The notes under the pieces were generated by a model. It searched no databases, was not told the DNA's origin, and saw nothing but the letters and a program-made list of their open reading frames with translations. A program made the translations under genes and the position numbers. Positions 35,270 to 48,475 of a stretch of 64,000 nucleotides of DNA are shown in pieces (positions within the stretch are counted from its first letter, which is position 1; each line of letters starts with the position of its first letter). Source of the DNA: Paraprevotella clara YIT 11840 (lineage in GTDB: Bacteria; Bacteroidota; Bacteroidia; Bacteroidales; Bacteroidaceae); NCBI RefSeq assembly GCF_000233955.1, contig NZ_JH376579.1, positions 1 to 64,000 on the forward strand. The letters are read 5' to 3'.

Positions 35270-36517
35270 TTATCTGATTTTCAACTTGTCCTTTGTCTTA
35301 AATTCATTCATATTCGAGATAACAACGGTTTCCCCGGGACGGATTCCATCAACCACTTCCACATATAATGAACTGCTCTCACCCAAAAGGACAGTACGTT
35401 TTTCAGCCTGGCCGCCGTCCACTATCCAAAGCTGATATTCTCCGGGGCCGGAGTAATAAGCCCTGTTCGGTATCATTATGACATTTTCTTTTATGGAAGT
35501 CACCACATATACATCAGCCCTAAGCCCCGGACGCAGGGATTTGTTCGACGCATCATCCAAAACCACGGTAAAACTTATTTTCCCGTTGGAAACCGAAGGA
35601 ACAATGTTTGCTATGCCACCGGAAAGAGATACGCTACCTATTTTCACCTCCACACGACTCCCGACATTGAACTGCCCCGCGTAACTGTCTGAAATTTCCG
35701 CCTTGACCTTGAACCTGCCCAAATCCGACAATACGGCCAACTGCTCCCCTTGGGCCACTCCGGAACCGACGGCCTCGTTTACCCACGACAATGTGGCATC
35801 AAAAGGCGCAAGCACGCGTGCATCGCCGAATTCTTTTCGTTTGAGAGACAGCTTCCGCTCGGCAATGCCGAATTCAAGTTCATTGACTTTCAGGGTGGAC
35901 TCCACAATCTTCTTCTTGTTCTCATAGTTCAACTTCAACTGCTCGAATTGGAGTTCCGCCACTTCATAATCCAGTTCCCGCTGCCGTACCATATCCTCGG
36001 TACTGGCACCTATGCTGTCGAGATAATGTTCGTTAGCCATCAGTACTTTCATCCTTTTCAGGCGCATGCCATCTATGGCCACCTGCTTTTCCAAATCACT
36101 GATTTCGCTCACGGCTTGGGTACGGAACTGCTCCAACTTATACTTTTGGATTTCGACGGCATCGGTTTCCTCCTGTAGGCTGATGTTGGCCGAAGACAAA
36201 TCTAATCTGAGAATCGTATCGCCTTTGTGTACCTGCTCGCCTGATTTTTTATAAACCTCCAATATCTTCGTGGAAATAGGCGACGTGATGCTCTCTTCAT
36301 AAAAAGGTGTAACGGTGCCTGTGGCCCCAACCGAAACTTCCAATGTCCCTTTTGAAGCTTGCGCCACATCTGCGGATTCCAAATCCAGACCCGGTTGCAC
36401 AAAATTCGCTATCACAATCGAAATAACGACGAGGGCACATACCACAGCCCCAATCCGCACATATCTCGCTATTTTTTTCCTACGTATGTCCTTATCAGAC
36501 AATTTTCTGTCCATCAT
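35270..36517 (-). CDS. HlyD/MacA-type periplasmic adaptor of the RiPP exporter
   Basis: A 415-residue membrane-fusion protein, last gene of the eleven-gene operon. The chosen start at 36517 lies 4 bp after the TolC-type stop; an upstream frame to 36550 would overlap that gene more. A single N-terminal helix (about 18-38) is followed by the biotinyl-lipoyl half-motifs (YEESITSPISTKILEVYKKS, VLAPFDATLSWVNEAVGSGV). A long coiled-coil hairpin lies between them (about 110-210), and beta-barrel and membrane-proximal domains end the protein. It should link the FtsX-type permeases to the outer-membrane channel. Confidence 0.9.
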   Translation of the reverse strand: MMDRKLSDKDIRRKKIARYVRIGAVVCALVVISIVIANFVQPGLDLESADVAQASKGTLEVSVGATGTVTPFYEESITSPISTKILEVYKKSGEQVHKGDTILRLDLSSANISLQEETDAVEIQKYKLEQFRTQAVSEISDLEKQVAIDGMRLKRMKVLMANEHYLDSIGASTEDMVRQRELDYEVAELQFEQLKLNYENKKKIVESTLKVNELEFGIAERKLSLKRKEFGDARVLAPFDATLSWVNEAVGSGVAQGEQLAVLSDLGRFKVKAEISDSYAGQFNVGSRVEVKIGSVSLSGGIANIVPSVSNGKISFTVVLDDASNKSLRPGLRADVYVVTSIKENVIMIPNRAYYSGPGEYQLWIVDGGQAEKRTVLLGESSSLYVEVVDGIRPGETVVISNMNEFKTKDKLKIR

Positions 36518-36521
36518 GGCA

Positions 36522-37994
36522 TTATCTTTTATATTCGTAATCGTAAACAATGTTTGTCCCCTTCTCGAAATCGAAAAGGGTAATATATCTCAGGTTGTAA
36601 TAATAGTACCAAGACAAATACAACTGGTATATATAGTTCCGCCGGGCATTGTCTTTTTCCTGCTCGGCATAGTTGAGGTCAGTGACGCTGATATCCCCTA
36701 CGGCAAATCTGTTCAGGGCGATATTGTAACGTTCTTGTGCCACCGATTCGGCTTCCCTATAAATTTTTGCAAGTTCCTGTTGATCCAGAAAGTTTTCCGC
36801 CAATATCCGGACTTTCTCGTTGAACTCGCGTTCCTCTCTTTCCGTCTTGTTCACGGTCAAATCATAATCAGCTTTGGCCTGGATATAGTTTCCCTTTCTT
36901 TTTCCCCAGTCGAGGATGGGAACACTGACACCGATTTGGGCAATTTGCCGGTTGCCTAAATGGGTATACGCTCCGGCAAATGTCGGATGACTGCCAGTCG
37001 TTCCCACAGACAGGTTCAGGTTCACATCCGGCAACCGTTTCCGCTTCTCCTTGACCACGTTGGCTTCGGCTTCAATCAACCTGATTTTGAAATTATCATA
37101 TATCGGATTGTTTTCATACGCTTTCTGCCTGATATCCTCTATGCTGATTGAAGGAATCATTTTTGCATCCGGAATCACCGGCGTTATTTCGATGTGCTCA
37201 TCCAACCCGAGATAATTTTTAAGCGCATTCATTTTCTCAAGATAGTCATTCTCAGCCGTAAGGACATTGGCATTGGCATTCAGTAACCCTACTCTCAGTT
37301 GCATCAGGTCGCTGCCGGAGATGGTTCCGATTTTCTCCCTTGCACAAGCAGACTTATACAACTCTGAAGCATTCCGTTGGTTCTGGCGGGCACTTTCGAG
37401 ATTGGACATGGAAGTCAACAGGTCGAAATAAGAAGAAACCGTCGAGATATTCACATTTTCGAGATTGGCCACATACTCCGATTGGCTCGCCTTGAATCTC
37501 AAAGGCTCTACTTTTTTCTGCCATTTGTATGGATTATAAGCAAACAACGGTTGCGACAGGGTGACCGTAAACGGGACTGTCAGGAAACTTCCATCCCCAT
37601 CAGCACCGAGTTGGTCCATCCGTTCAAGATTGGATTCGAGATAGATCTCACCCCCGGTAAACGGTATAATTTGTTTGACGGTAAAACCTAAATATTCGCT
37701 TAAATAATTATTGGGTACGAACTTGTACGACCCGTCTTCCTGTTGGTATGAATTCAGTTGCTTGTTCAGCGAGGGAAGCGTTCCGGACAACGAGATACCC
37801 GGCAACCTGTCTGTCTTATAATTCCGGAATCTCCAATACGATTTCAGCGCATTGTTCCGGTTTTCCATTGATGCCACCGACTTGGCCTGCCCGAGCACCA
37901 TGGCCTCCTCAAGGGTCAGACGCTGCTTATTTTCCTGCGCCGACAACGGGAGGGCCAAGGTACTCAAACACAATATGCTCCACAACCCTTTCAT
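36522..37994 (-). CDS. TolC-family outer-membrane channel of the RiPP exporter
   Basis: A 490-residue outer-membrane efflux protein with signal peptide (MKGLWSILCLSTLALPLSA). A strong Shine-Dalgarno AAAGGAGG lies 7 nt before the ATG at 37994, which favours it over the ATG at 38000; such ribosome sites are uncommon in Bacteroidetes. Two long helical repeats typical of TolC are seen (SYFDLLTSMSNLESARQNQ, ILAENFLDQQELAKIYREA). The gene overlaps or abuts the permease stop. With the adaptor and ABC parts it completes a cell-envelope-spanning exporter. Confidence 0.92.
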   Translation of the reverse strand: MKGLWSILCLSTLALPLSAQENKQRLTLEEAMVLGQAKSVASMENRNNALKSYWRFRNYKTDRLPGISLSGTLPSLNKQLNSYQQEDGSYKFVPNNYLSEYLGFTVKQIIPFTGGEIYLESNLERMDQLGADGDGSFLTVPFTVTLSQPLFAYNPYKWQKKVEPLRFKASQSEYVANLENVNISTVSSYFDLLTSMSNLESARQNQRNASELYKSACAREKIGTISGSDLMQLRVGLLNANANVLTAENDYLEKMNALKNYLGLDEHIEITPVIPDAKMIPSISIEDIRQKAYENNPIYDNFKIRLIEAEANVVKEKRKRLPDVNLNLSVGTTGSHPTFAGAYTHLGNRQIAQIGVSVPILDWGKRKGNYIQAKADYDLTVNKTEREEREFNEKVRILAENFLDQQELAKIYREAESVAQERYNIALNRFAVGDISVTDLNYAEQEKDNARRNYIYQLYLSWYYYYNLRYITLFDFEKGTNIVYDYEYKR

Positions 37995-37996
37995 AT

Positions 37997-39184
37997 TCAT
38001 TCCTCCTTTAGCAATTCCACCGGTTTCATGCTGAATATTTTAAAGGCCGGATACAATGCACACAGAACGGACAGCATCAGAGTCAGCACGACAGTAAACC
38101 CGACAACAGGCAATGAAGTCTCCCACGGGAAGCTGAGCAAAATGACTATGATACCGGGAATGGAGGATATTCCAGTAATGACGGCGTTCTGCGCAATAAT
38201 CATATTCATGATGCTTTTCTTTGACGCACCGCAAGCGACACGCAAAGCCAGTTCGCGCTTTCGTTTTTCCACATCGATTAAGTTGATGCCGACTGTACCG
38301 ATAAGTGTGAATAAGAGGAGGAACAATGCAGGAATAACGACTGAAACTGTTTTAATAACGGATTTCTCCATACCGGCTCTCTTTCCTTGAGACAACAAAC
38401 CTAAACAAGGCTCTACCTGTCCATTAGATTTCCATGCACGGTTCCATTCAAGGTAGAAATCATTGGCAAAATCATCTTCATACCCCGGTTTAATTCGTGC
38501 AGCCAATTCTTCGTAATTCCCAGTTGATCCTGTGGGCAACAATACCGAGACAGGAACAACTATACTAGGAAAAGACTCCTCCAAGACCGCTTCTTTTATC
38601 CCTGATACAATGCCTACTATCGAATAGGTTCGCCCATTCAAAAACACAATTTTTCCTATCGGGTTCTCAATTTCAGATGCCACAGCCAATTGTTCTGTTA
38701 TCACTGCCGGATATAGTCCATTCACCCGTTCACCATTACGAAACCACCGTCCTCGTATAATATCAGGTTTAAATACAACTTCAGCAGCTTCATCAGTTCC
38801 CTTAAAATGAGCAAAAACCTTTTTTCCTGAAACAAAAGATACTGAGTCGCCCCAATAGTATTGTGCCGGTCTCAGATAAGGTATAAACTGCAGACACTCA
38901 CTTATACTTTCTACATAAGTTTTTTTCTCAAGCCTCTCCTTTACTACGTCCATTGCCTCTACTGCCATTCCGGAAAGCTGTGAATCCTGATTTCTACCGA
39001 TAAGGTAACCGAAATATACTACGTTATCCACATCTAACTTTCCCGGTGACTGATAGCTTCTGAACGTATCCAATGCCACCGTCAAAGAAACGGATAACGC
39101 TATAAACACCAAAGCTTGTTCGAATATTACTGCTGTAAACTTTTTCTTCTGGTTATACAGCATGATTAATATATGCTTTATCAT
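37997..39184 (-). CDS. ABC transporter permease, MacB/FtsX type (second)
   Basis: A 395-residue permease with one N-terminal helix (about 17-38), a large periplasmic MacB-like domain (about 45-260) and three C-terminal helices (FtsX fold, about 275-390) that include the ERKRELALRVACGASKKS coupling stretch. It overlaps the preceding permease gene by four bases (ATGA) and lies upstream of the channel gene. Unlike MacB itself, the ATPase is on a separate protein. Together with the first permease it forms a heterodimer. Confidence 0.88.
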   Translation of the reverse strand: MIKHILIMLYNQKKKFTAVIFEQALVFIALSVSLTVALDTFRSYQSPGKLDVDNVVYFGYLIGRNQDSQLSGMAVEAMDVVKERLEKKTYVESISECLQFIPYLRPAQYYWGDSVSFVSGKKVFAHFKGTDEAAEVVFKPDIIRGRWFRNGERVNGLYPAVITEQLAVASEIENPIGKIVFLNGRTYSIVGIVSGIKEAVLEESFPSIVVPVSVLLPTGSTGNYEELAARIKPGYEDDFANDFYLEWNRAWKSNGQVEPCLGLLSQGKRAGMEKSVIKTVSVVIPALFLLLFTLIGTVGINLIDVEKRKRELALRVACGASKKSIMNMIIAQNAVITGISSIPGIIVILLSFPWETSLPVVGFTVVLTLMLSVLCALYPAFKIFSMKPVELLKEE

Positions 39185-40395
39185 AAGTCCCTACCTTTTA
39201 ATTCTACAGCAATGTTTCTAACCACAGTATGATACGCCGGAATTCCACCGGAAATCAGGGCAAACAACAAGGCCATTACCAGAGTAAGTGCCAACACGGT
39301 AATGTCCAGACTGAAACCGGACAACACCGAAATGGTATTACCGCTTGTGGACAACATCCCGTCAATCAGTGCCATCACAGGTTTTACAAGAATGACAGCA
39401 AAGATGAAGCCTACAAGCGAAAGCAAGATATTTTCCGAAATAATTTGCCCAAAAGCCTGCTGTTTGGTAGCACCAAGTGCCCTTTTTATCGCTATTTCCG
39501 TAGCCATGGCATATACTTTGGCCGAACTAAGGGTCATGATGTTCAATGCCGGAATCAGGATGAGCAACAACAGAATGGCGACAGCACCGTAATTGAAGGT
39601 ACTTCCCCCTACATATTTGTACTTGGCTTCCTGTAACGTCAACACATTATCTTTCTTGATGTTGGCATCTATGCCTTTGATCCGATAATATTGTGTCAAG
39701 GCGTGTATTAGATTTTCCTGCATATCATGGGGCAGCATATTCTGATCAAAAAGGATATTTATCGAATAGCATTCTTCGTATGAAGGCAGGAACTGATTAT
39801 ATTTATCCGACACCCATATAACTGCTTTCTCAAAAGGATTCTGAAGAGAAGAAAAATCTCGAACAACCCCGACAATGGTATATTCCTGCTTTTGAATAGT
39901 TATTTTCTCTCCAAGGGGATTACCGGGAAAACTCCTGTCGGCAAAACTTTTCGCAATGACAGCCTGAGGCACGGCATTCTCCGTAAACGGTCTGCCCGAA
40001 ATAAAATCAAATTCGTTGATTTCAAAATGGGAATCTCTCACGAAGCCTACGTTTGCCACTCTCACCTTTCCATTGGCAAACACCAATATTTCTTCAGTAT
40101 TGCTGATGCTGTAACCGGTTGTCCCCGGCAAAGCAGACACAAACCGTTCTATGTCTTGTGTCTCTATACCTCCTATCTCGTTCCCGTTCTTATCCGTAAA
40201 CCAAGTCTCTAATCGAATCATATTTTCAGCGTTGACAAACGGTTGGGCATCGCTTCTTACCAATCTAACAGCCGTAAATAAGAGAATAATCAGCATAAAC
40301 GCCACCGCCATACCGAGAATGTAAAATGTCGAATACAGCTTATCATCCCATGCACTGCGTGCTGCATTTCTTATATAAATCAAAATCATCTTCAT
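39181..40395 (-). CDS. ABC transporter permease, MacB/FtsX type (first)
   Basis: A 404-residue permease built like its neighbour: N-terminal helix (about 19-40), periplasmic domain with IVGVVRDFSSLQNPFEKAV, and C-terminal FtsX helices with the MATEIAIKRALGATKQQ coupling stretch. It begins 14 bp after the ATPase stop. The two permeases are only distantly alike, so a heterodimer is expected. Confidence 0.88.
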   Translation of the reverse strand: MKMILIYIRNAARSAWDDKLYSTFYILGMAVAFMLIILLFTAVRLVRSDAQPFVNAENMIRLETWFTDKNGNEIGGIETQDIERFVSALPGTTGYSISNTEEILVFANGKVRVANVGFVRDSHFEINEFDFISGRPFTENAVPQAVIAKSFADRSFPGNPLGEKITIQKQEYTIVGVVRDFSSLQNPFEKAVIWVSDKYNQFLPSYEECYSINILFDQNMLPHDMQENLIHALTQYYRIKGIDANIKKDNVLTLQEAKYKYVGGSTFNYGAVAILLLLILIPALNIMTLSSAKVYAMATEIAIKRALGATKQQAFGQIISENILLSLVGFIFAVILVKPVMALIDGMLSTSGNTISVLSGFSLDITVLALTLVMALLFALISGGIPAYHTVVRNIAVELKGRDL

Positions 40396-40409
40396 CTCTT
40401 GTTGCCATT

Positions 40410-41099
40410 TTATTGTTTTGTCCCATTAATTACATCCGTTATTTCTCCATCGTTCATCATCACCCTAACGGAAGCTTCAGCAGCCAGTTTGGCATCATGC
40501 GTCACCATGACTACCGTCATTCCCTCTGCATTGAGCTCCAACAGCAGATCCATGATTTCGTGCCCCATGCGGCTGTCCAGGTTTCCTGTCGGCTCATCAG
40601 CCAGAAGCACATGGGGGTGTGCCATCATGGCCCGGGCTATCGCCGCCCGTTGGCACTGACCACCCGAAAGTTGGGACGGAAAATGTTTCATACGGGATAC
40701 CAATCCCACTTTCTCTATGATAGAGACGGCACGCTCCCTCACCTCTTTCGATGACAAGTTTTCGCGGCTGTAAAGCATCGGCAACTCTACATTCTGCAAG
40801 ATATTCAGGCTCGGAATCAGATGGAAGCTTTGGAAGATGAAACCGAATTTCTCATTTCTTAACCGGGAAAGTTCCTTGTCAGTCATATTGCCCGTATCTG
40901 TCCCCTCTATGCGTATGGTTCCCTTCGTTGGGTTGTCCAAATGTCCGATAATATTCAGCAGCGTGGATTTGCCGCAACCGGACGCTCCCATGATGGACAT
41001 AAAATCCCCTTTCTTCACATTCAGACTGACCCCATTGAGGGCAAAGGTCTCGATTTCATCAGTCGAAAAGACCTTGTAGATGTTTTCAAGTTCTATCAT
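40410..41099 (-). CDS. ABC transporter ATP-binding protein, LolD/MacB type
   Basis: A 229-residue ATPase with Walker A GASGCGKST, signature LSGGQCQRAAIARAM, Walker B VLLADEPTGNLDS and switch His in MVTHDAK. It belongs to the MacB/LolD/FtsE subgroup, whose transporters extrude peptides or lipoproteins from the outer leaflet rather than importing. It overlaps the upstream O-antigen-ligase-like gene by 14 bp. In this operon it should power export of the modified peptide, probably from the periplasm. Confidence 0.95.
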   Translation of the reverse strand: MIELENIYKVFSTDEIETFALNGVSLNVKKGDFMSIMGASGCGKSTLLNIIGHLDNPTKGTIRIEGTDTGNMTDKELSRLRNEKFGFIFQSFHLIPSLNILQNVELPMLYSRENLSSKEVRERAVSIIEKVGLVSRMKHFPSQLSGGQCQRAAIARAMMAHPHVLLADEPTGNLDSRMGHEIMDLLLELNAEGMTVVMVTHDAKLAAEASVRVMMNDGEITDVINGTKQ

Positions 41100-43266
41100 A
41101 ATAAATGGATTTTATATCAGTATCTTTACCCTCAAATACAACTTTTCCGGATGACTGCGGACAGCATATCCGAAAGCCTATACTCCGATGCAACGGATAA
41201 AGATACCAATGCATTGATTTTACATTATAATTCGAATAATCATTATTATCTTCCGAAGATGACGTATCATTCCAAATGGCAAGGTGCCGTAAAAGCTCGG
41301 GCGAGGCGTTAGCACCTGCAATCTTGGCCAAATACACCCAAGGTGTTTTCAGGTTCGGAAGCATGGCTGCGGCCTCAGACAGATATTCTTTCGCCACAGT
41401 GGAATCTCCCAACAAATACAGCAATTTACCATACCTTGAAAGCCGCAGCGGATCATCAGGCTTATTGGCCGTTTCAAGTTTGATGGCATCCATTATATCA
41501 TCCGCTACAATTCTATCATTTCCGACAAATTCTTTCCATGATTTACTTTCCAAAATAGATGGAGAAGCAATAACGGCTTTGGTAAAATGTGGTATGGATT
41601 CTTTTCTCTTTCCAACACCATACAACATATCTGCCAACAGCAACCTATAAAAAGTGTTCTCAGGAAACTTTGCAACTAAACTTTTAGCTTCACCAAGAGC
41701 CTTCTCTTTCTTATTCCTATACTGCACTACGGCTCTGCATCCTAACAAATAAGCATCGTTCGGACTGAAAGTTACCGCACGGTCTATATGCTTTTGCGCC
41801 AGACTCAAATATCGCCCGTCTTGATGTTCATTATAGATAGCCATGCATGCGGACGATGCCAACACATTGGATGCCACATTGTCCCGAGCTTGATTGACTT
41901 TCTCATAAGCTGAGACATAATCTTTTTCAGAGGCAAATATCGAATAGTCTTGATAGCACTTTTGGTCGTGCCAAAAGATGAAATGATATACACTCAGCCC
42001 ACTAAAACCAATGATTATCATAATCATACAAACGGTTTTAGGAAATGCAACTCCCCCATTTTCCTCTTTTGAAATATTGCACTGCGACAAGGCAAGCCAT
42101 ATCGCCAACGCCGCCAAAAGCCGCTTGTCCGTAAGTATCGCTGCAAAACTCATCTCCCGTGCGAATATGACCAAAAGGAACAAAAAGAGAAATACCTGCC
42201 CCCTCCTGTTCACAAAACTACACTTAGACAACATGATACATTCAATGAGGAACACAAGTCCCCAAAGCACTGTTCCTACAACACCCTTTTCCAACAGCAA
42301 CTGCGAAAAGACATTCGGTGCCATATTCGTAAACGAATCCCCGTTGTGTTCGAAAGTGTATTCATTCACCGCCAAAGAATAATTTCCTGTTCCGCAACCC
42401 ATCCACGGATTATTCTTTAATGCCTGCCATGTATAGTCTAAGGCGTTTACCCGGGCCTGCAAACTCCGTTGCTGGGACTCTGTTTCCACCAACCTCATTG
42501 TCCGCAAAGCATCATTCTTGAACACGAACACCATGCCGATAAGCACTACCGCCAGCGAAATCAACTTAATAAGCTTTATATGAGTCTTGTCATTGGAGGT
42601 TAGGATATAATAGGATATTAACAACATACTCAATGCCAGACATATATAGATACCTCTTGAAAAAGAACAGACCAGACACACCAACAGGAGACAGAAAGGA
42701 ATGATTCCGAATATCACCTCCTTTCCTTTTTGGGCATACGTAAGCAACGGGATTGCTGCAATCCCCAAAAGCATCAGCATCAAGGTGCCCCAAACATTGT
42801 TGAGGCTTCCGAAAGGTCTATACAGATACTTGAAATCATAAAGGCTTTCGAATCCGGCATCATATACCAGACCTGCAAAAAGGCCGAATGAAACCAATGA
42901 TATGACGGATATCATGAATATAAACACCAACAAAATCCGCATGAATGGCTTGACCGTGGAAACATCCCTTAGCCCTAACCGGAGAATAAAATAATAGGTA
43001 ATGAACAAGTATTGCCCCGTAAGATAGGATATACAATTATTCTGTCCTTCGGTAAACATTCCGATAATAAATTCCCATACCCACAGAGCCAGTACAAGCC
43101 CATCCAAAAGATTAAACCTTATCGTCCCTTTCTTGTATACGACCCCAAACAGGACGCAAGTATATATCCCTGCCATGGCGAACGCCCTTGATTGCGCAAA
43201 ACACAAGGCAAACAGAATAACGCCAAGGGTTGGCATAAAATTATATGAAGCGATCGGTTTAGTCAT
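41086..43266 (-). CDS. O-antigen-ligase-like (Wzy_C) membrane protein with TPR domain
   Basis: A 726-residue protein; the ATG at 43266 overlaps the protease stop by 8 bp, while the TTG at 43272 is less likely. About ten to twelve membrane helices fill residues 10-430, and TPR-like helical repeats (about 440-680) form the C-terminus. The Wzy_C motif is clear: NPWMGCGTGNYS near residue 285 and APNVFSQLLLEKGVVG near 315. In active O-antigen ligases the second motif begins with a His (HN); here Pro stands at that place (APN), although EHNGDS lies a few residues earlier. Relatives include protein O-glycosyl ligases, so peptide glycosylation, lipid linkage or immunity are options. Function unproved. 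Confidence 0.75.
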   Translation of the reverse strand: MTKPIASYNFMPTLGVILFALCFAQSRAFAMAGIYTCVLFGVVYKKGTIRFNLLDGLVLALWVWEFIIGMFTEGQNNCISYLTGQYLFITYYFILRLGLRDVSTVKPFMRILLVFIFMISVISLVSFGLFAGLVYDAGFESLYDFKYLYRPFGSLNNVWGTLMLMLLGIAAIPLLTYAQKGKEVIFGIIPFCLLLVCLVCSFSRGIYICLALSMLLISYYILTSNDKTHIKLIKLISLAVVLIGMVFVFKNDALRTMRLVETESQQRSLQARVNALDYTWQALKNNPWMGCGTGNYSLAVNEYTFEHNGDSFTNMAPNVFSQLLLEKGVVGTVLWGLVFLIECIMLSKCSFVNRRGQVFLFLFLLVIFAREMSFAAILTDKRLLAALAIWLALSQCNISKEENGGVAFPKTVCMIMIIIGFSGLSVYHFIFWHDQKCYQDYSIFASEKDYVSAYEKVNQARDNVASNVLASSACMAIYNEHQDGRYLSLAQKHIDRAVTFSPNDAYLLGCRAVVQYRNKKEKALGEAKSLVAKFPENTFYRLLLADMLYGVGKRKESIPHFTKAVIASPSILESKSWKEFVGNDRIVADDIMDAIKLETANKPDDPLRLSRYGKLLYLLGDSTVAKEYLSEAAAMLPNLKTPWVYLAKIAGANASPELLRHLAIWNDTSSSEDNNDYSNYNVKSMHWYLYPLHRSIGFRICCPQSSGKVVFEGKDTDIKSIYYDRT

Positions 43267-44425
43267 GGACAAAAAGACGTCGTATGAGTTTATAAAAGAA
43301 ATAAAACGTCAGCAAGAGTATGAACAACTTAGCTGTAACAGACGAAATCAGACTGAACGTTATGCTGTTTCCCACGGCAATATCTACAACCAATCTCTTG
43401 ACCTGTCCGGGCAATTCCAAATAACAGGATTTCAACAAGCTTGGTATCACAAAGAACAGATAATAGGCAAAGAACAGATTGGTGCTTACCGTGTAGATAA
43501 CCAACAGCACCTGTTCTTTTATTCTAATTTGCCTCCAGAAGCCACTACTGTCCGACTTACGCAGGATTTTGTTTTTTAAAGCCAGTACAATCCAATTAGA
43601 CTTCCCCCTAAGATTGGGGATTCCTATCAAATCCGACATAATCCAATAACCGTCGAATCTGAAAAACGGATTCAGAATGAAGATAAAATTTAAATTTATG
43701 GTATAAATCAGATATTTCACGATTTGATTACCGGTCAGCAAATAAATGGCAATGCACGGAATGAGAAATATAAGTTGGAAGTATGTTCCCGCAAAGTTTA
43801 CCACCATGCGTTTCCCTCTCGACAGTTTCCATATATCAGAAACATCGGTGTAGAACACCGGAAAGTTCAGATAGAGACCTAAGCCTATGCTTTTAGCCTT
43901 TTCTCCAAAATAACAGCAAGCCGAGGCATGGCCAATCTCATGAAACAGGGAGGACAGCAACATGGTTATCACCAAAATCATGATTGCAAGCAAATCTATT
44001 TCACCTATCGACACCTTATTCCCCTGCATAAAAAACACAGTTTCCAAGGCAACCGACAGCAATAAAATGGCAATAATGATGGCAGGACGAAACAAAACTT
44101 TGAAAATGTCCTGCAATACATCAACCTGCCCCCGTGACAGGATATCTTTTGACCAAAGAAAAGTTTTTTTCTTGGGCGGTTCTGTATTAAGCACATTTAA
44201 AACATAAGTCTCATATATCGTCCTGACATCATCCGCAGTATATGCCTCTCCCTTCCATACAGACCATGCAGAAGCGGCCTCCTCAAAAGTTTGGGATTGT
44301 TTGAGGGTTTCTAAGAACTTTGCGAGTGTCTCGGATACCACAAAATGTCTCTCACCCGACGATACAAGGTACTTAGTGTCCACGTACGCCGAATCTAACG
44401 GTACTATATTTATGGAATTTAACAT
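43259..44425 (-). CDS. PqqD-like/M50 zinc membrane protease (RiPP maturation)
   Basis: A 388-residue protein with an N-terminal about 85-residue PqqD-like region (PLDSAYVDTKYLVSSGERHFVVSETLAKFLETL) expected to bind a leader peptide. Several membrane helices follow, with an HEXXH site at His162-Glu163-His166 (FHEIGHASACCYFG) and the second M50 ligand Asp258 in NPFFRFDGYW. M50 proteases such as YydH act in rSAM peptide clusters. The ATG at 44425 is preferred; a TTG directly after the precursor stop (44455) would add ten residues. It follows the two precursor genes directly, so leader removal within the membrane is the likely task. Confidence 0.85.
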   Translation of the reverse strand: MLNSINIVPLDSAYVDTKYLVSSGERHFVVSETLAKFLETLKQSQTFEEAASAWSVWKGEAYTADDVRTIYETYVLNVLNTEPPKKKTFLWSKDILSRGQVDVLQDIFKVLFRPAIIIAILLLSVALETVFFMQGNKVSIGEIDLLAIMILVITMLLSSLFHEIGHASACCYFGEKAKSIGLGLYLNFPVFYTDVSDIWKLSRGKRMVVNFAGTYFQLIFLIPCIAIYLLTGNQIVKYLIYTINLNFIFILNPFFRFDGYWIMSDLIGIPNLRGKSNWIVLALKNKILRKSDSSGFWRQIRIKEQVLLVIYTVSTNLFFAYYLFFVIPSLLKSCYLELPGQVKRLVVDIAVGNSITFSLISSVTAKLFILLLTFYFFYKLIRRLFVHD

Positions 44426-44455
44426 ATCAGAACTAAAAACTTGATTTCCTATCAA

Positions 44456-44701
44456 TCATTTAAACTCAGGACACGAATCAACCAAGCACGTAAGATTTGG
44501 ACAGTCAGAAAGTTTTCTGCAATCACAAGAGAGAGGCATAGAATCATCTGAATGACCTATCACAGCATTGCCGAAAACTTGAGTGAACATCAAAGGATCA
44601 GTCTCAAGACGTGCTTCCAATTCTTCAATACTAAAGTCCTCAAACAAGGGCTTATTAAGTGACGTCATTTCACTGCCAATCATAATAGAATTCGTTTTCA
44701 T
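44456..44701 (-). CDS. Cys-rich RiPP precursor peptide 2
   Basis: An 81-residue peptide. The leader holds FSIEELEARLETDPLM (23-38) followed by FTQVFG, almost the same as in precursor 1. The C-terminal core has five Cys: 59, 61, 67, 72 and 77, in the frame CxCRKLxxCPxLxC then a later C. No Gly-Gly cut site ends the leader. It starts 10 bp after precursor 1 and ends against the protease gene. Sequence resembles no family I can name; the arrangement with an rSAM/SPASM enzyme suggests thioether-type or other radical crosslinks. Confidence 0.8.
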   Translation of the reverse strand: MKTNSIMIGSEMTSLNKPLFEDFSIEELEARLETDPLMFTQVFGNAVIGHSDDSMPLSCDCRKLSDCPNLTCLVDSCPEFK

Positions 44702-44711
44702 GAGACAATTA

Positions 44712-45002
44712 TTATTTCAGTGAAAATTCACAAATAGGACTGCATGGCGAAGACTTTCCCCCCCGACATATACATTCAAGCACCGGACATTTTTCCAGTT
44801 TACGACATCCACATAATGGCTCTATTGAGTCATTATCGCCATTCACCGTAATCCCAAAAATCTGCGAAAGCATTAATGGATCCGTCTCCAGTCTCGCCTC
44901 CAACTCTTCAATACTGAACTCACTAAGGAGATGGCTGTTCAAGGACGTCATTTCTTCACTTGGGGTATCCGCAGATACCACTGAATTAATTTTCCGTTTC
45001 AT
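44712..45002 (-). CDS. Cys-rich RiPP precursor peptide 1
   Basis: A 96-residue peptide. Residues 29-50 hold the leader block FSIEELEARLETDPLMLSQI then FG, shared with precursor 2. The core has seven Cys: 64, 66, 72, 77, 79, 87 and 91. CGCRKLEKCPVLEC aligns with the second peptide, after which this one has its own tail (ICRGG, PCSPIC). No Gly-Gly site is seen. It lies 68 bp after the maturase, and that gap carries a small hairpin and an A-rich stretch before the ATG, which may raise its translation. Leader kept, core changed, is the usual sign of precursor paralogs. Confidence 0.82.
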   Translation of the reverse strand: MKRKINSVVSADTPSEEMTSLNSHLLSEFSIEELEARLETDPLMLSQIFGITVNGDNDSIEPLCGCRKLEKCPVLECICRGGKSSPCSPICEFSLK

Positions 45003-45043
45003 TTTTAGTTTTTTTGATTAAACATCAGTTGTTATACATATTA

Positions 45044-45059
45044 AGCCATCATCTTGGCT
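45044..45059 (-). promoter_or_regulatory. Hairpin between maturase and precursor genes
   Basis: AGCCA (45044-45048) pairs with TGGCT (45055-45059), 5 bp with a 6-nt loop, in the 68-bp gap after the rSAM stop. Such stems can end or stabilise mRNA and set a higher level for precursor genes. A run of seven A precedes the precursor ATG on the minus strand. Confidence 0.35.
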
Positions 45060-45070
45060 CATATATATTC

Positions 45071-46468
45071 TTATATCATAAAGATTTTATCTTTCACTGC
45101 ATTATTGTATGCCTTGTTTACAGCAAAATTGACAATATCGTCATATCCATCGCAATAACTCGCATTAAAATTTCCGCCATACTTCAAAGCTTTGGCCATG
45201 CAACCACCGCCACACAACAAGGCATATTTACAGCAACTGCATTTTGGAGTATTGGCTATATTTCTCCCCTGCCAATTCGCCACGCGGTCATTAAACTCTA
45301 CTGCTGGGGCATATCTGCCCAATACATATTCCGGTTTACCTACTGTATCCCAACATGTATATATGTCACCATACGGATCCAAAATATAAGACCCAGATTG
45401 TACACCGCAGAAAATAGAACGGAATCTTATACAGGTTTTGTTCTTCAAAGCTGTAATAACCTTATCATAGACCCCATAGTCTTGATGAGGTACGGTCAAC
45501 CCACTCTCTGCATACATCTGATTGAATTTTTCCCGAGAAAAGTAATCGATATCCGTATCTTTTGTATCGGAGTTTTCTTTACTCAACATCGCAGTATTAA
45601 ACGAAAACAGCTTCGAATCAGAAAATCCGGTTTCTGCAAATATATCTTGCAGCTTCTTGATTTCACCGAAATTGTTTGCATCGGCATTAAACCTGACCCC
45701 GACCATAATTCCATTGTCCAAAGCCAACTTGATATTGCTTAGAATCTTATCAAACGATTTGTGCGTCTGATAATGGAAACGCCGGGAGTCGTGCATATCT
45801 TTCATCCCATCGAGCGTAATCTGGACATGACGCATTGCACCGGAAGATAGAACCTCTGTATAACAATCGAGGTCGTGCCCATTGGTAATGGCATCGAAGA
45901 CATATCCCAACTCTTGCCCTTTCTTTACGATGTAGGTTACTATATCCACATTTTCCTTCAAAAATGGCTCTCCTCCATACAAAGTTATGATGCTATTTTT
46001 CTTTTCATTGTCCGGTGCGATTTCCGACATAGCCTGATAAGCCCTGTCTACCAACTCTTTGGTAAATGTTCTTTTCGTCCAATGCCTTCCATTTCCGGAA
46101 ATACCGGCTTCATAACAATACGGGCATCTGAAATTGCAGTCATACGTAACCATAAAAACAAAACTTTTTGCATGCCTTTTGGCATCTTTATGCAATAACC
46201 CGGCAAGTCTTCCCGTCAGTTCCCTCTCCTGAACTGCCGTTTTGTCCGTAATATAGCCCCGTTTTACCATAAGGTCAAATGTTTTTTCGGAAAAGCCTAC
46301 ATCTGTTTTCTCAAAGACCCTAAGATTATGTAATGCGTCTGCAACTTTTGCATCCACAATGTCTATCGCTCCGGTATAACCATGTATGAAGAAATGCAAC
46401 TTTCCTTCAGATGCTTTCAAAGGGGTATCTATCAAATAGGAAGAAACTCTGTATTTCATAACTCTCAT
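45071..46468 (-). CDS. Radical SAM/SPASM peptide maturase
   Basis: A 465-residue enzyme. The CX3CX2C cluster motif is at Cys111, Cys115 and Cys118 (CNFRCPYCYE), followed by LYGGEP and a TIM-barrel core. The C-terminal SPASM region has Cys for two auxiliary clusters, including FCGVQSGSYILDPYGDIYTCWD and CSCCKYALLCGGGC. The N-terminal 90 residues (YLIDTPLKASEGKLHFFIHG) look like a leader-binding or PqqD-like region. SPASM enzymes of this kind build sactipeptide, ranthipeptide or other crosslinks in RiPPs. It sits directly upstream of two Cys-rich peptides, so it is their probable modifier. Confidence 0.93.
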   Translation of the reverse strand: MRVMKYRVSSYLIDTPLKASEGKLHFFIHGYTGAIDIVDAKVADALHNLRVFEKTDVGFSEKTFDLMVKRGYITDKTAVQERELTGRLAGLLHKDAKRHAKSFVFMVTYDCNFRCPYCYEAGISGNGRHWTKRTFTKELVDRAYQAMSEIAPDNEKKNSIITLYGGEPFLKENVDIVTYIVKKGQELGYVFDAITNGHDLDCYTEVLSSGAMRHVQITLDGMKDMHDSRRFHYQTHKSFDKILSNIKLALDNGIMVGVRFNADANNFGEIKKLQDIFAETGFSDSKLFSFNTAMLSKENSDTKDTDIDYFSREKFNQMYAESGLTVPHQDYGVYDKVITALKNKTCIRFRSIFCGVQSGSYILDPYGDIYTCWDTVGKPEYVLGRYAPAVEFNDRVANWQGRNIANTPKCSCCKYALLCGGGCMAKALKYGGNFNASYCDGYDDIVNFAVNKAYNNAVKDKIFMI

Positions 46469-46504
46469 AATTTTATTAAATTTTATTTTTGAATGAATAA
46501 TAAA

Positions 46505-48475
46505 TTACCACCATACTTGCCTGTCATTTTCGTATGTGAAAATACGCTCTTCAATACCTTTGGTACGGTTATGCAATACAAAAAGAGCATTGGACGGGCA
46601 ATCGTCGTATTCGAGGAAAATATCATCGGCAATTTTCTTCCCGAGAGACACCCAATCCCCATCTTTCCAATAGCACAATTCGTATTCGTTCCCTATTTCG
46701 ATTTCATTTCCATCGCCTCGCATGATGCAAGTCACACGTGCGATATCCACAGGATGCCCGAAATCCATTCCCACCCACGAATCAGAAGGTGTAGGAGCAT
46801 CGAAATATGTCAGGATGTCTCCATCGAACGCAGCTTCTTTCCGGTATTCCGGTTCCGGCCTGTATGCTCCCGAAGTACCGATAATTTCACCTTTAGTAGA
46901 ATGCAGGGAATCCCGTTCGAAAAACGCAAGTTCCGCCACATTCACAAAACCATAATCTCCGGAAAAATATCTCCAATACCGATATTCGTATCCGCAGGAG
47001 TCCGGTATGGATATATCGTTTTCTATTGTATGATAAGTATGGACGGTCACAGCATCTTTGAACTCCGGATCGTTAGATGCCTGGATTTTCGCTTTTCTCA
47101 TACGATATGCTTCCCCGTATGTATGCGGAAGATACGGATGCTTCTTGTAAAGCCGGAGCTTACAACGGTTCTTCTCATTCGGTGCCAACACCCTGACATT
47201 CCCGTTTACGTCAAGAATGAATGGGTCATGAACCGCTTTAGCACAGGTATCTTCCCAAACTACGGGAAGGTACACTGCATCCTTACCCACCTTGTCAAAA
47301 ACCATTTCATTACGGGACAATACCCCAAGCGCAACCGGTTGCCATTTAAAATTATCGAAAAGGGCAAGATACGCGTATTTATGTTCTGTCCGTACATCCG
47401 GTTTCAGATTCAAGCCTACGGTTTCCATATATTCATCCGTTACATCCTTAATAAAGGGAGTGGTGAATATTTCCGGAACAGATTTTTCCTTTTTCAACAA
47501 ATCTTCAATCACCTTATTGATAGAGTAAGTCCTTCTGTAGACTTTTGCCATCTTATGGTCTTTCTTATGTGGCATGCCCACCGGTTGACCTACTCCTTCA
47601 AATACGGCCATGTGCCCCATCCTTTCCTTTAACACATTCCACGTGTGCCCTTGGCTCCGGAAAGGCCATTGGGGAGTGAAATCTATGGCACAAGGAATAC
47701 CTTTCGCCATCATGACAGCCTGAGCCATAAACGAATAGTCTATACAAGTTCCCCAACCGATATGAGCCAAAGTACGTATGCGCCGAACGGGCAATACTTT
47801 TTTCCCATTGATGGCAGGATTCATCGCTTTACGCAGATTCTCATTTACAAGATTACAGGCTATATAAGGATTGTTCATAAAAACCGCACACCTGTCACGG
47901 TCGGCCAATGACTCTTCATATCGTTCATAACAAAACTTCCTCCAATCGTCAAGAGTTTGTCCGTCACCTACTTTATACGGCAATATCAACTCACAGAAAT
48001 CATCAAAATCCACGTGTTCGGACCACGTATTTTTACCCCATACGGCAAAAGCTTCATCTATGTTTTTAATCAAATAGTCCGCATCCAGAATCATGATGTC
48101 CAGAACTGTAGCCAGATTGTATTTGGCGTACTTTTGCGTTACACTGTCATACAAGCTGTCGATGATTTCATTTGATTTTCCTTTAGCCAATGCCATCACC
48201 GAATCAACCTCATCATAATATTGATTTAAAAGGATTGTATCTGCATACGAGTAATGATACGGCATGTTCTCTATCAGGAAACAGGCTGCCCGATATTTCA
48301 GGCTGTCGGCAGGATTTTCGGAATAATGCCCAAGTACGCGTTCCAATTCACCCCGATTAGAACCGGCTGACATAAGAGCCGACTCAAGATAAAAATAATC
48401 ACTTGTACAGCTCCCGAACATCAATAATATATTGATAAATATTGCGGCTTGAAATAAGGCAAATATTTTTTTCAT
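46505..48475 (-). CDS. Transglutaminase-fold lipoprotein with C-terminal F5/8-like domain, first gene of the RiPP operon
   Basis: A 656-residue lipoprotein; Cys23 lies in the box LLMFGSC. The middle holds a transglutaminase-core motif, GWGTCIDYSFMAQAVMMAKG with the later GHTWNV, so Cys and His of the triad are present. Residues about 485-640 read like an F5/8 (discoidin) galactose-binding-like domain (DILTYFDAPTPSDSWVGMDF, VDIARVTCIMRGDG). The rSAM gene begins 36 bp after its stop. Such bacterial proteins are usually hydrolytic or transferring cysteine enzymes rather than true crosslinkers. It may trim, attach or bind the mature peptide at the cell surface; unproved. Confidence 0.82.
   Translation of the reverse strand: MKKIFALFQAAIFINILLMFGSCTSDYFYLESALMSAGSNRGELERVLGHYSENPADSLKYRAACFLIENMPYHYSYADTILLNQYYDEVDSVMALAKGKSNEIIDSLYDSVTQKYAKYNLATVLDIMILDADYLIKNIDEAFAVWGKNTWSEHVDFDDFCELILPYKVGDGQTLDDWRKFCYERYEESLADRDRCAVFMNNPYIACNLVNENLRKAMNPAINGKKVLPVRRIRTLAHIGWGTCIDYSFMAQAVMMAKGIPCAIDFTPQWPFRSQGHTWNVLKERMGHMAVFEGVGQPVGMPHKKDHKMAKVYRRTYSINKVIEDLLKKEKSVPEIFTTPFIKDVTDEYMETVGLNLKPDVRTEHKYAYLALFDNFKWQPVALGVLSRNEMVFDKVGKDAVYLPVVWEDTCAKAVHDPFILDVNGNVRVLAPNEKNRCKLRLYKKHPYLPHTYGEAYRMRKAKIQASNDPEFKDAVTVHTYHTIENDISIPDSCGYEYRYWRYFSGDYGFVNVAELAFFERDSLHSTKGEIIGTSGAYRPEPEYRKEAAFDGDILTYFDAPTPSDSWVGMDFGHPVDIARVTCIMRGDGNEIEIGNEYELCYWKDGDWVSLGKKIADDIFLEYDDCPSNALFVLHNRTKGIEERIFTYENDRQVWW

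Follow-up and report, generated by a model that had tools for sequence, protein, structure and literature searches.

A candidate radical SAM peptide operon with its own exporter genes in Paraprevotella clara, and a lipoprotein and Wzy_C pair that recurs outside it

Gene content and organisation of the locus

The window analysed here is a stretch of 64,000 nucleotides from Paraprevotella clara YIT 11840 (contig NZ_JH376579.1). Between positions 35270 and 48475 its minus strand carries eleven open reading frames, all of which an ORF check placed where the original prediction had them (Table 1). In the order of transcription the junctions measure 36, 68, 10, 0, -14, -14, 14, -4, -4 and -29 bp, the last of these depending on a TTG start and being smaller with an internal ATG; nine of the ten are 36 bp or less, which agrees with the expectation of eleven minus-strand genes joined mostly by overlaps or gaps under 40 bp. 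The operon is more AT-rich than its surroundings, with GC3 values of 0.34-0.58 for its own genes and of 0.62-0.63 for three genes nearby, and this is consistent with acquisition by transfer. No tRNA was detected in the window by ARAGORN. The surroundings of the operon had no match to a Bacteroidetes-type promoter pattern, and a sigma-70 and terminator scan remained close to its shuffled background.

Table 1. Predicted genes of the operon, in the order of transcription, with the evidence for each assignment
Feature	Position	Strand	Evidence
Transglutaminase-like lipoprotein, 656 aa, with C-terminal discoidin/galactose-binding-like region	46505-48475	-	F5/8C over cut-off; Transglut_core in 14/20 relatives; 2yb7 match
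Radical SAM/SPASM enzyme, predicted peptide maturase, 465 aa	45071-46468	-	PF04055 and TIGR04085 over cut-off
Putative precursor peptide A, 96 aa, Cys-rich core	44712-45002	-	leader in common with relatives
Putative precursor peptide B, 81 aa, Cys-rich core	44456-44701	-	leader in common with relatives
M50 membrane metalloprotease, 398 aa, N-terminal domain maybe PqqD/RRE-like	43259-44455	-	HExGH and NPxxxxDG; NF041824; model
Wzy_C membrane protein, 728 aa, TPR-like C-terminus	41086-43272	-	PF04932 over cut-off; TPR below; WaaL 7tpg alignment
ABC ATPase, MacB/LolD type	40410-41099	-	ABC_tran over cut-off; 59% identity to G346
MacB-type permease 1	39181-40395	-	MacB_PCD and FtsX over cut-off; 36% to G346
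MacB-type permease 2	37997-39184	-	MacB_PCD and FtsX over cut-off; 29% to G346
TolC-type outer membrane channel	36522-38000	-	OEP over cut-off; 41% to G346
HlyD/MacA-type periplasmic adaptor	35270-36550	-	TIGR01730 over cut-off; 47% to G346

Putative precursor peptides and their common leader

Peptides A and B have in common FSIEELEARLETDPLM, after which they diverge into Cys-rich cores with eight and five cysteines. An ELExRLETDP block is invariant in seven of seven precursors from three places, namely the window (two), a second cluster of the same genome (L012, one) and a Rikenellaceae MAG (L021, four), and their cores differ, one of the L021 peptides having seven core cysteines. The locus thus presents short peptides with a conserved leader and a variable core adjoining a maturase gene, the arrangement by which RiPP precursors are recognised. 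Neither window peptide matched Pfam or NCBIfam at E 0.1, the seven precursors together gave a single, chance-level NCBIfam match (E 0.15), and the string RLETDP was absent from the open-access literature searched.

A profile of the leader detected four of 393 genomes of the order (the source genome and G346, with G206 and G450 weakly, G450 being the weakest match with an E of 0.002 and one TGA) and three of 395 genomes of the phylum (the source genome, G569 and G772). Homologues of the radical SAM enzyme and of the M50 protease adjoin the leader in L012, L021, G346, G569 and G772. The precursors of G569 and G772 have one or two core cysteines and that of G206 has none, so that thioethers are not necessarily the common product of peptides with this leader. 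Cys-poor cores with a KPW motif follow the same leader at L071:4858-9247, L072:5612-9999 and L031:111-2680; in the first two the KPW precursor adjoins genes for a radical SAM enzyme, an M50 protease and a squalene-hopene-cyclase-like protein, and in the third, a 4 kb contig, a Cys-free precursor is found with a CarboxypepD_reg-like protein. At L021:12620-12836 a degenerate fifth precursor-like stretch was recognised by eye amid the four intact ones.

Related clusters in other genomes

Searches covered the 393 genomes of the order and the 395 genomes of the phylum. Genome mining, a check proposed with the original prediction, recovered the whole gene set, in the same gene order and with one precursor, in G346, a one-contig genome from another family of the order. 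In addition to the exporter identities of Table 1, its lipoprotein is 39%, its radical SAM enzyme 45% and its Wzy_C protein 29% identical to those of the window, and an M50 protein is present. One in-frame TGA interrupts its radical SAM gene (L029:13978-13980) and another its Wzy gene (L030:2392-2394), likely through gene decay. In G120 there remain the lipoprotein, relics of the radical SAM gene, the ABC gene, permease 1 in two pieces, permease 2, TolC and HlyD.

The second cluster of the source genome (L012, on contig C48) encodes a lipoprotein (42%) on the divergent strand, a radical SAM enzyme (35%), one precursor, an M50 protein (36%), a Wzy_C protein (25%) and a 762-aa CarboxypepD_reg protein, and the exporter is absent from it. 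A VapE-like/DUF3874 gene adjoins this cluster (L012:4815-6233), pointing to a region that is mobile or variable. The L021 cluster has a radical SAM enzyme of 51% identity, the four precursors and the remnant mentioned above, and an M50 gene at the contig end; no lipoprotein was found in the 10 kb before the radical SAM gene, and the profile of radical SAM-linked Wzy proteins had no match in that genome, where an adjacent lipoprotein and Wzy_C pair does lie on another contig (L083). Elsewhere in the phylum, G569 and G772 combine a radical SAM enzyme, a precursor with two or fewer core cysteines, an M50 protein and a squalene-hopene-cyclase-like protein, to which G569 adds a CarboxypepD_reg protein; neither genome has any lipoprotein match.

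The system is rare and patchy in its distribution, the radical SAM profile reaching E 1e-60 or better in two of the 393 genomes of the order. Beyond the two copies of the source genome nine further matches were rejected, eight being enzymes of 27-31% identity and one the G120 relic; L022, at 25% identity, was set aside. A scan of the neighbours of three of the eight (L013, L014 and L018) showed a different system with thioredoxin reductase. In these, radical SAM/SPASM genes 28-30% identical to that of the window adjoin a gene for thioredoxin fused to thioredoxin reductase; two of the three also have a methyltransferase gene close by and the remaining one a thioredoxin gene, which is another conserved system. 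Because a conserved leader precedes divergent cores and the gene set is conserved elsewhere, the reading of the locus as a radical SAM RiPP operon, put forward in the original prediction, is well supported by sequence comparison.

The radical SAM enzyme and the M50 protease

The CxxxCxxC motif and seven SPASM cysteines are invariant in five of five radical SAM sequences compared. Among the best 25 of 70 matched NCBIfam models the highest scores were obtained with CefB (140 bits), TIGR04463 (139) and PapB (129), which as models are annotated maturases of Cys-rich peptides. Even the best of these lies below its cut-off (CefB, 140 of 600 bits), none of the named maturase cut-offs is reached within the same 25, and membership in a named equivalog is ruled out among the models listed. 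The closest solved relative is 5wgg (E 4e-19), which we take to be the thioether enzyme CteB. The enzyme accordingly resembles the ranthipeptide, SCIFF and other maturases of Cys-rich peptides in its radical SAM/SPASM architecture, in the Cys-rich nature of the putative substrates and in its best scores, but the operon differs from these systems in falling below all cut-offs, in its leader family and in its Gram-negative export set.

We infer that the enzyme recognises the common leader and most likely links core cysteines to nearby residues as thioethers. The same operon could also work with an enzyme that forms C-C or C-O links or epimerises residues, the core cysteines then serving in disulfides or metal binding. 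The Cys-poor KPW cores behind the same leader, and scores below the cut-off of each thioether-maturase model listed, speak for such chemistry; the eight and five core cysteines of the window peptides, the seven of an L021 peptide and the identity of the top-scoring models speak against it, and we regard it as unlikely. Under the preferred reading, in which the cores would be cross-linked through their cysteines, the modified peptides would be passed to the protease.

The M50 protein scores 20.9 bits in Pfam, below the cut-off of 26, but three of three sequences keep the motifs HExGH and NPxxxxDG. Its score is 107 of 300 bits with the daptide M50 model NF041824 and 57.1 of 225 with the epipeptide YydH/LiaK model, so that the likeness to the daptide and Yyd/Epe clusters lies in the presence of an M50 membrane protease and the difference in these low scores. 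The PqqD-like domain that had been ascribed to it gave no Pfam match. In a two-sequence model of the first 115 residues, of moderate confidence (pLDDT 73.7), three strands and three helices follow the order seen in PqqD-like domains. Of the 50 PDB matches listed, SkfB 6efn (0.75) and TigE 8vpo (0.63) were the most probable, and none reached E 0.001. SkfB is a RiPP radical SAM enzyme, as TigE presumably is too. The order of strands and helices thus fits the earlier assignment and the database matches do not secure it, leaving a PqqD/RRE-like N-terminal domain as suggestive only. The protease would cut off the leader at the inner membrane, a role in keeping with M50 proteases that serve epipeptides, as described in the accessible part of PMC10885120. 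The comparison with Yyd that had been drawn for the whole locus therefore extends to its radical SAM, M50 and ABC genes, but not to the score of the protease on the epipeptide model, nor to the radical SAM enzyme, whose best scores are on maturases of Cys-rich peptides.

The exporter and known systems

The five exporter genes all exceed the cut-offs of their families (Table 1), and the ATPase scores best on LolD, with 241 of 308 bits. In the proposed pathway the ATPase, the two permeases, the adaptor and the TolC channel would carry the product across both membranes. An exporter devoted to other cargo (a lipid, a toxic compound or lipoproteins) that merely neighbours the peptide genes would explain the LolD score and the lack of exporter genes beside the peptide genes of the second cluster; in G346, however, the exporter genes follow the peptide genes with the order and packing of the window, and in G120 they adjoin the radical SAM relic, which makes foreign cargo very unlikely.

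Export of the modified peptide is the reading that we prefer. According to the accessible text of PMC9055067, darobactin comes from a Gram-negative radical SAM RiPP cluster with an ABC transporter and a membrane fusion protein (HlyD), and its exporter is dispensable for production in E. coli. Gram-negative radical SAM RiPPs with ABC/HlyD exporters are hence already known, and the original prediction is supported as to the type of system but not as to the novelty of that type. The likeness to the darobactin/daropeptide system (DarA, DarE, DarBCD) extends to the ATPase, with 234 of 375 bits on DarD; none of the DarBCD cut-offs is reached (DarC 75 of 450, DarB 11 of 700), the dynobactin maturase model gives 92 of 450, and the window operon differs in its split permeases, its own TolC, the M50 protease, the lipoprotein, the Wzy_C protein and the Cys-rich cores. 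Radical SAM-based RiPP clusters of Bacteroidales, the same order, are described in PMC10352776; they differ in the reported association of GG-leader precursors with peptidase-containing ABC transporters, and the main text of that paper contains none of the terms M50, MacB, O-antigen and transglutaminase. The open-access literature, surveyed mostly by title and the start of the abstract and with subscription papers outside its scope, held no evident description of the gene set.

The lipoprotein and the Wzy_C protein

The window lipoprotein matches F5/8C over cut-off, a domain that all 20 family members examined also match, and has no Transglut_core match of its own; the family match Transglut_core at E 0.1 or better in 14 of 20 members (best 5.3e-7), the window protein lying outside the 14. 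The transglutaminase fold that had been proposed for it is suggested by its relatives and was not detected in the protein itself. Cys244 and His277 are invariant in 20 of 20 members, and in the alignment, read by eye, no Asp follows the His where one would usually be expected. Two pieces of the C-terminal region match the carbohydrate-binding module 2yb7, in swapped order, reflecting either two half-matched tandem domains or one permuted domain. A single-sequence model (pLDDT 32.7) was useless and was discarded. Members of the family occur in 59 of the 393 genomes of the order.

The Wzy_C protein scores 65.3 bits on PF04932 (cut-off 31.7) and its TPR matches fall below cut-off, so that of the earlier label Wzy_C-TPR only the first half is secured. 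The roles of the WaaL residues, His313 being the proposed catalytic one, are taken from PMC12800693 and, reportedly, the structure paper on WaaL. When the family was aligned with WaaL (7tpg) through relatives, the equivalents of Arg191 and Arg265 were kept in 11 of 11 members, and none of the 11 had a His at the position of His313, which lies opposite Pro319 in the window protein; the family has Pro, Phe, Tyr or Leu there. Lipid-pyrophosphate binding remains plausible, and ligation by the WaaL mechanism is doubtful here. Twenty further Wzy_C proteins, read by eye with a profile that matched 12 of them, comprised seven with a His at this position, nine of the same kind without it and four of another kind; one of the nine (L105) has a lipoprotein gene some 1.6 kb away and is no independent control. 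The idea that the missing His is a peculiarity of the pair was rejected, since nine of these 20 proteins, of the same kind, also lack it, and the feature is one of a broader subfamily. A considerable number of the Wzy_C proteins in these genomes carry Phe, Tyr, Leu or Pro at the position of the proposed catalytic His of WaaL.

Chance adjacency of the two genes to the RiPP genes was likewise rejected, as both clusters of the source genome and G346 have the lipoprotein together with a Wzy_C protein. Most likely the pair, of a sugar-binding transglutaminase-like lipoprotein and a Wzy_C protein with TPR-like C-terminus, would work on the peptide in the envelope after its export. A variant in which the pair attaches the product to an envelope sugar or lipid, so that no free peptide is secreted, is quite improbable: the galactose-binding-type region and conserved Cys-His pair of the lipoprotein, with both WaaL arginines kept in the Wzy_C protein, would suit attachment, but Pro, Phe, Tyr or Leu replaces the proposed catalytic His and the TolC channel suggests release outside.

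Proposed pathway

Taken as a whole, we consider it probable that peptides A and B are RiPP precursors, that the radical SAM enzyme modifies them, that the M50 protease trims them, that the product is exported over two membranes and that the pair acts in the envelope. The sequences themselves establish the gene set and its conservation, the common leader, the catalytic motifs and the recurrence of the pair; the chemistry, the cleavage, the exporter cargo and the function of the pair are inferred. Several observations weigh against this account. All radical SAM, M50 and DarBCD equivalog models listed score far below cut-off, the relatives in G569, G772 and G206 have few or no core cysteines, the second cluster lacks an adjoining exporter, the G346 radical SAM and Wzy genes carry a TGA, the G120 radical SAM gene is a relic, and a lipoprotein is missing near the L021 cluster and from G569 and G772. 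If the account is correct, the operon represents a rare Gram-negative radical SAM peptide system in which one operon encodes everything from modification through export over two membranes, and the leader motif may be used to find more such systems.

Recurrence of the pair and NVEALA loci

The original prediction presented the combination with the lipoprotein and the Wzy_C protein as an unfamiliar one; these two proteins are not special to the system. Twenty stretches were taken, 18 around high-scoring lipoprotein genes and two from the phylum; the 18 are a non-random set, some on short contigs, from which a second G454 copy outscoring two of them was left out, and one is the G120 relic, so that the counts below refer to the other 17. 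Nine of these 17 loci outside radical SAM clusters contain a Pfam-confirmed Wzy_C gene (L054, L057, L058, L061, L062, L064, L065, L067 and L068), and the other eight gave no match to the Wzy profile used. The background, estimated from 43 Wzy_C matches in ten genomes of about 38.5 Mb, paired ones included, is about 0.02 per 20 kb. Peptides of the NVEALA family (PF14055) exceed the cut-off of Pfam in L054, L060 and L061, and a candidate in L062 stays below it (21 of 27 bits). RND-type proteins occur in nine of the 17 loci, by a profile built from one of them, and Pfam confirmed S26 signal peptidases in L055, L062 and L063 and DUF1573 proteins in L055, L061 and L064.

The two families therefore co-occur in loci without a radical SAM profile match, several of them near NVEALA and RND genes. 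The NVEALA loci resemble the window operon in their homologous lipoprotein and Wzy_C protein and differ in lacking a radical SAM profile match, in their peptide family and, in some, in the presence of S26 and RND pump genes. The pair would then be an accessory one, employed by these bacteria with further kinds of small exported peptide as well. A broader proposal, which we advance tentatively, is that the lipoprotein and a Wzy_C-TPR protein lacking the ligase histidine make up an envelope module of general use in Bacteroidales. This module would complete or anchor small peptides that are exported and would serve at least two unrelated makers, namely radical SAM RiPPs with MacB-type pumps and, near RND pumps, NVEALA peptides. 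The more surprising of these results is that NVEALA loci have the pair too, and it offers a testable lead to the function of the little-studied NVEALA peptides and their neighbours; the word NVEALA was absent from the open-access literature searched. In L054, L060, L061 and other stretches the lipoprotein homologues lie near genes for NVEALA, 6-bladed propeller, DUF1573, S26, RND and Wzy_C proteins, which together form a recurrent small-peptide locus.
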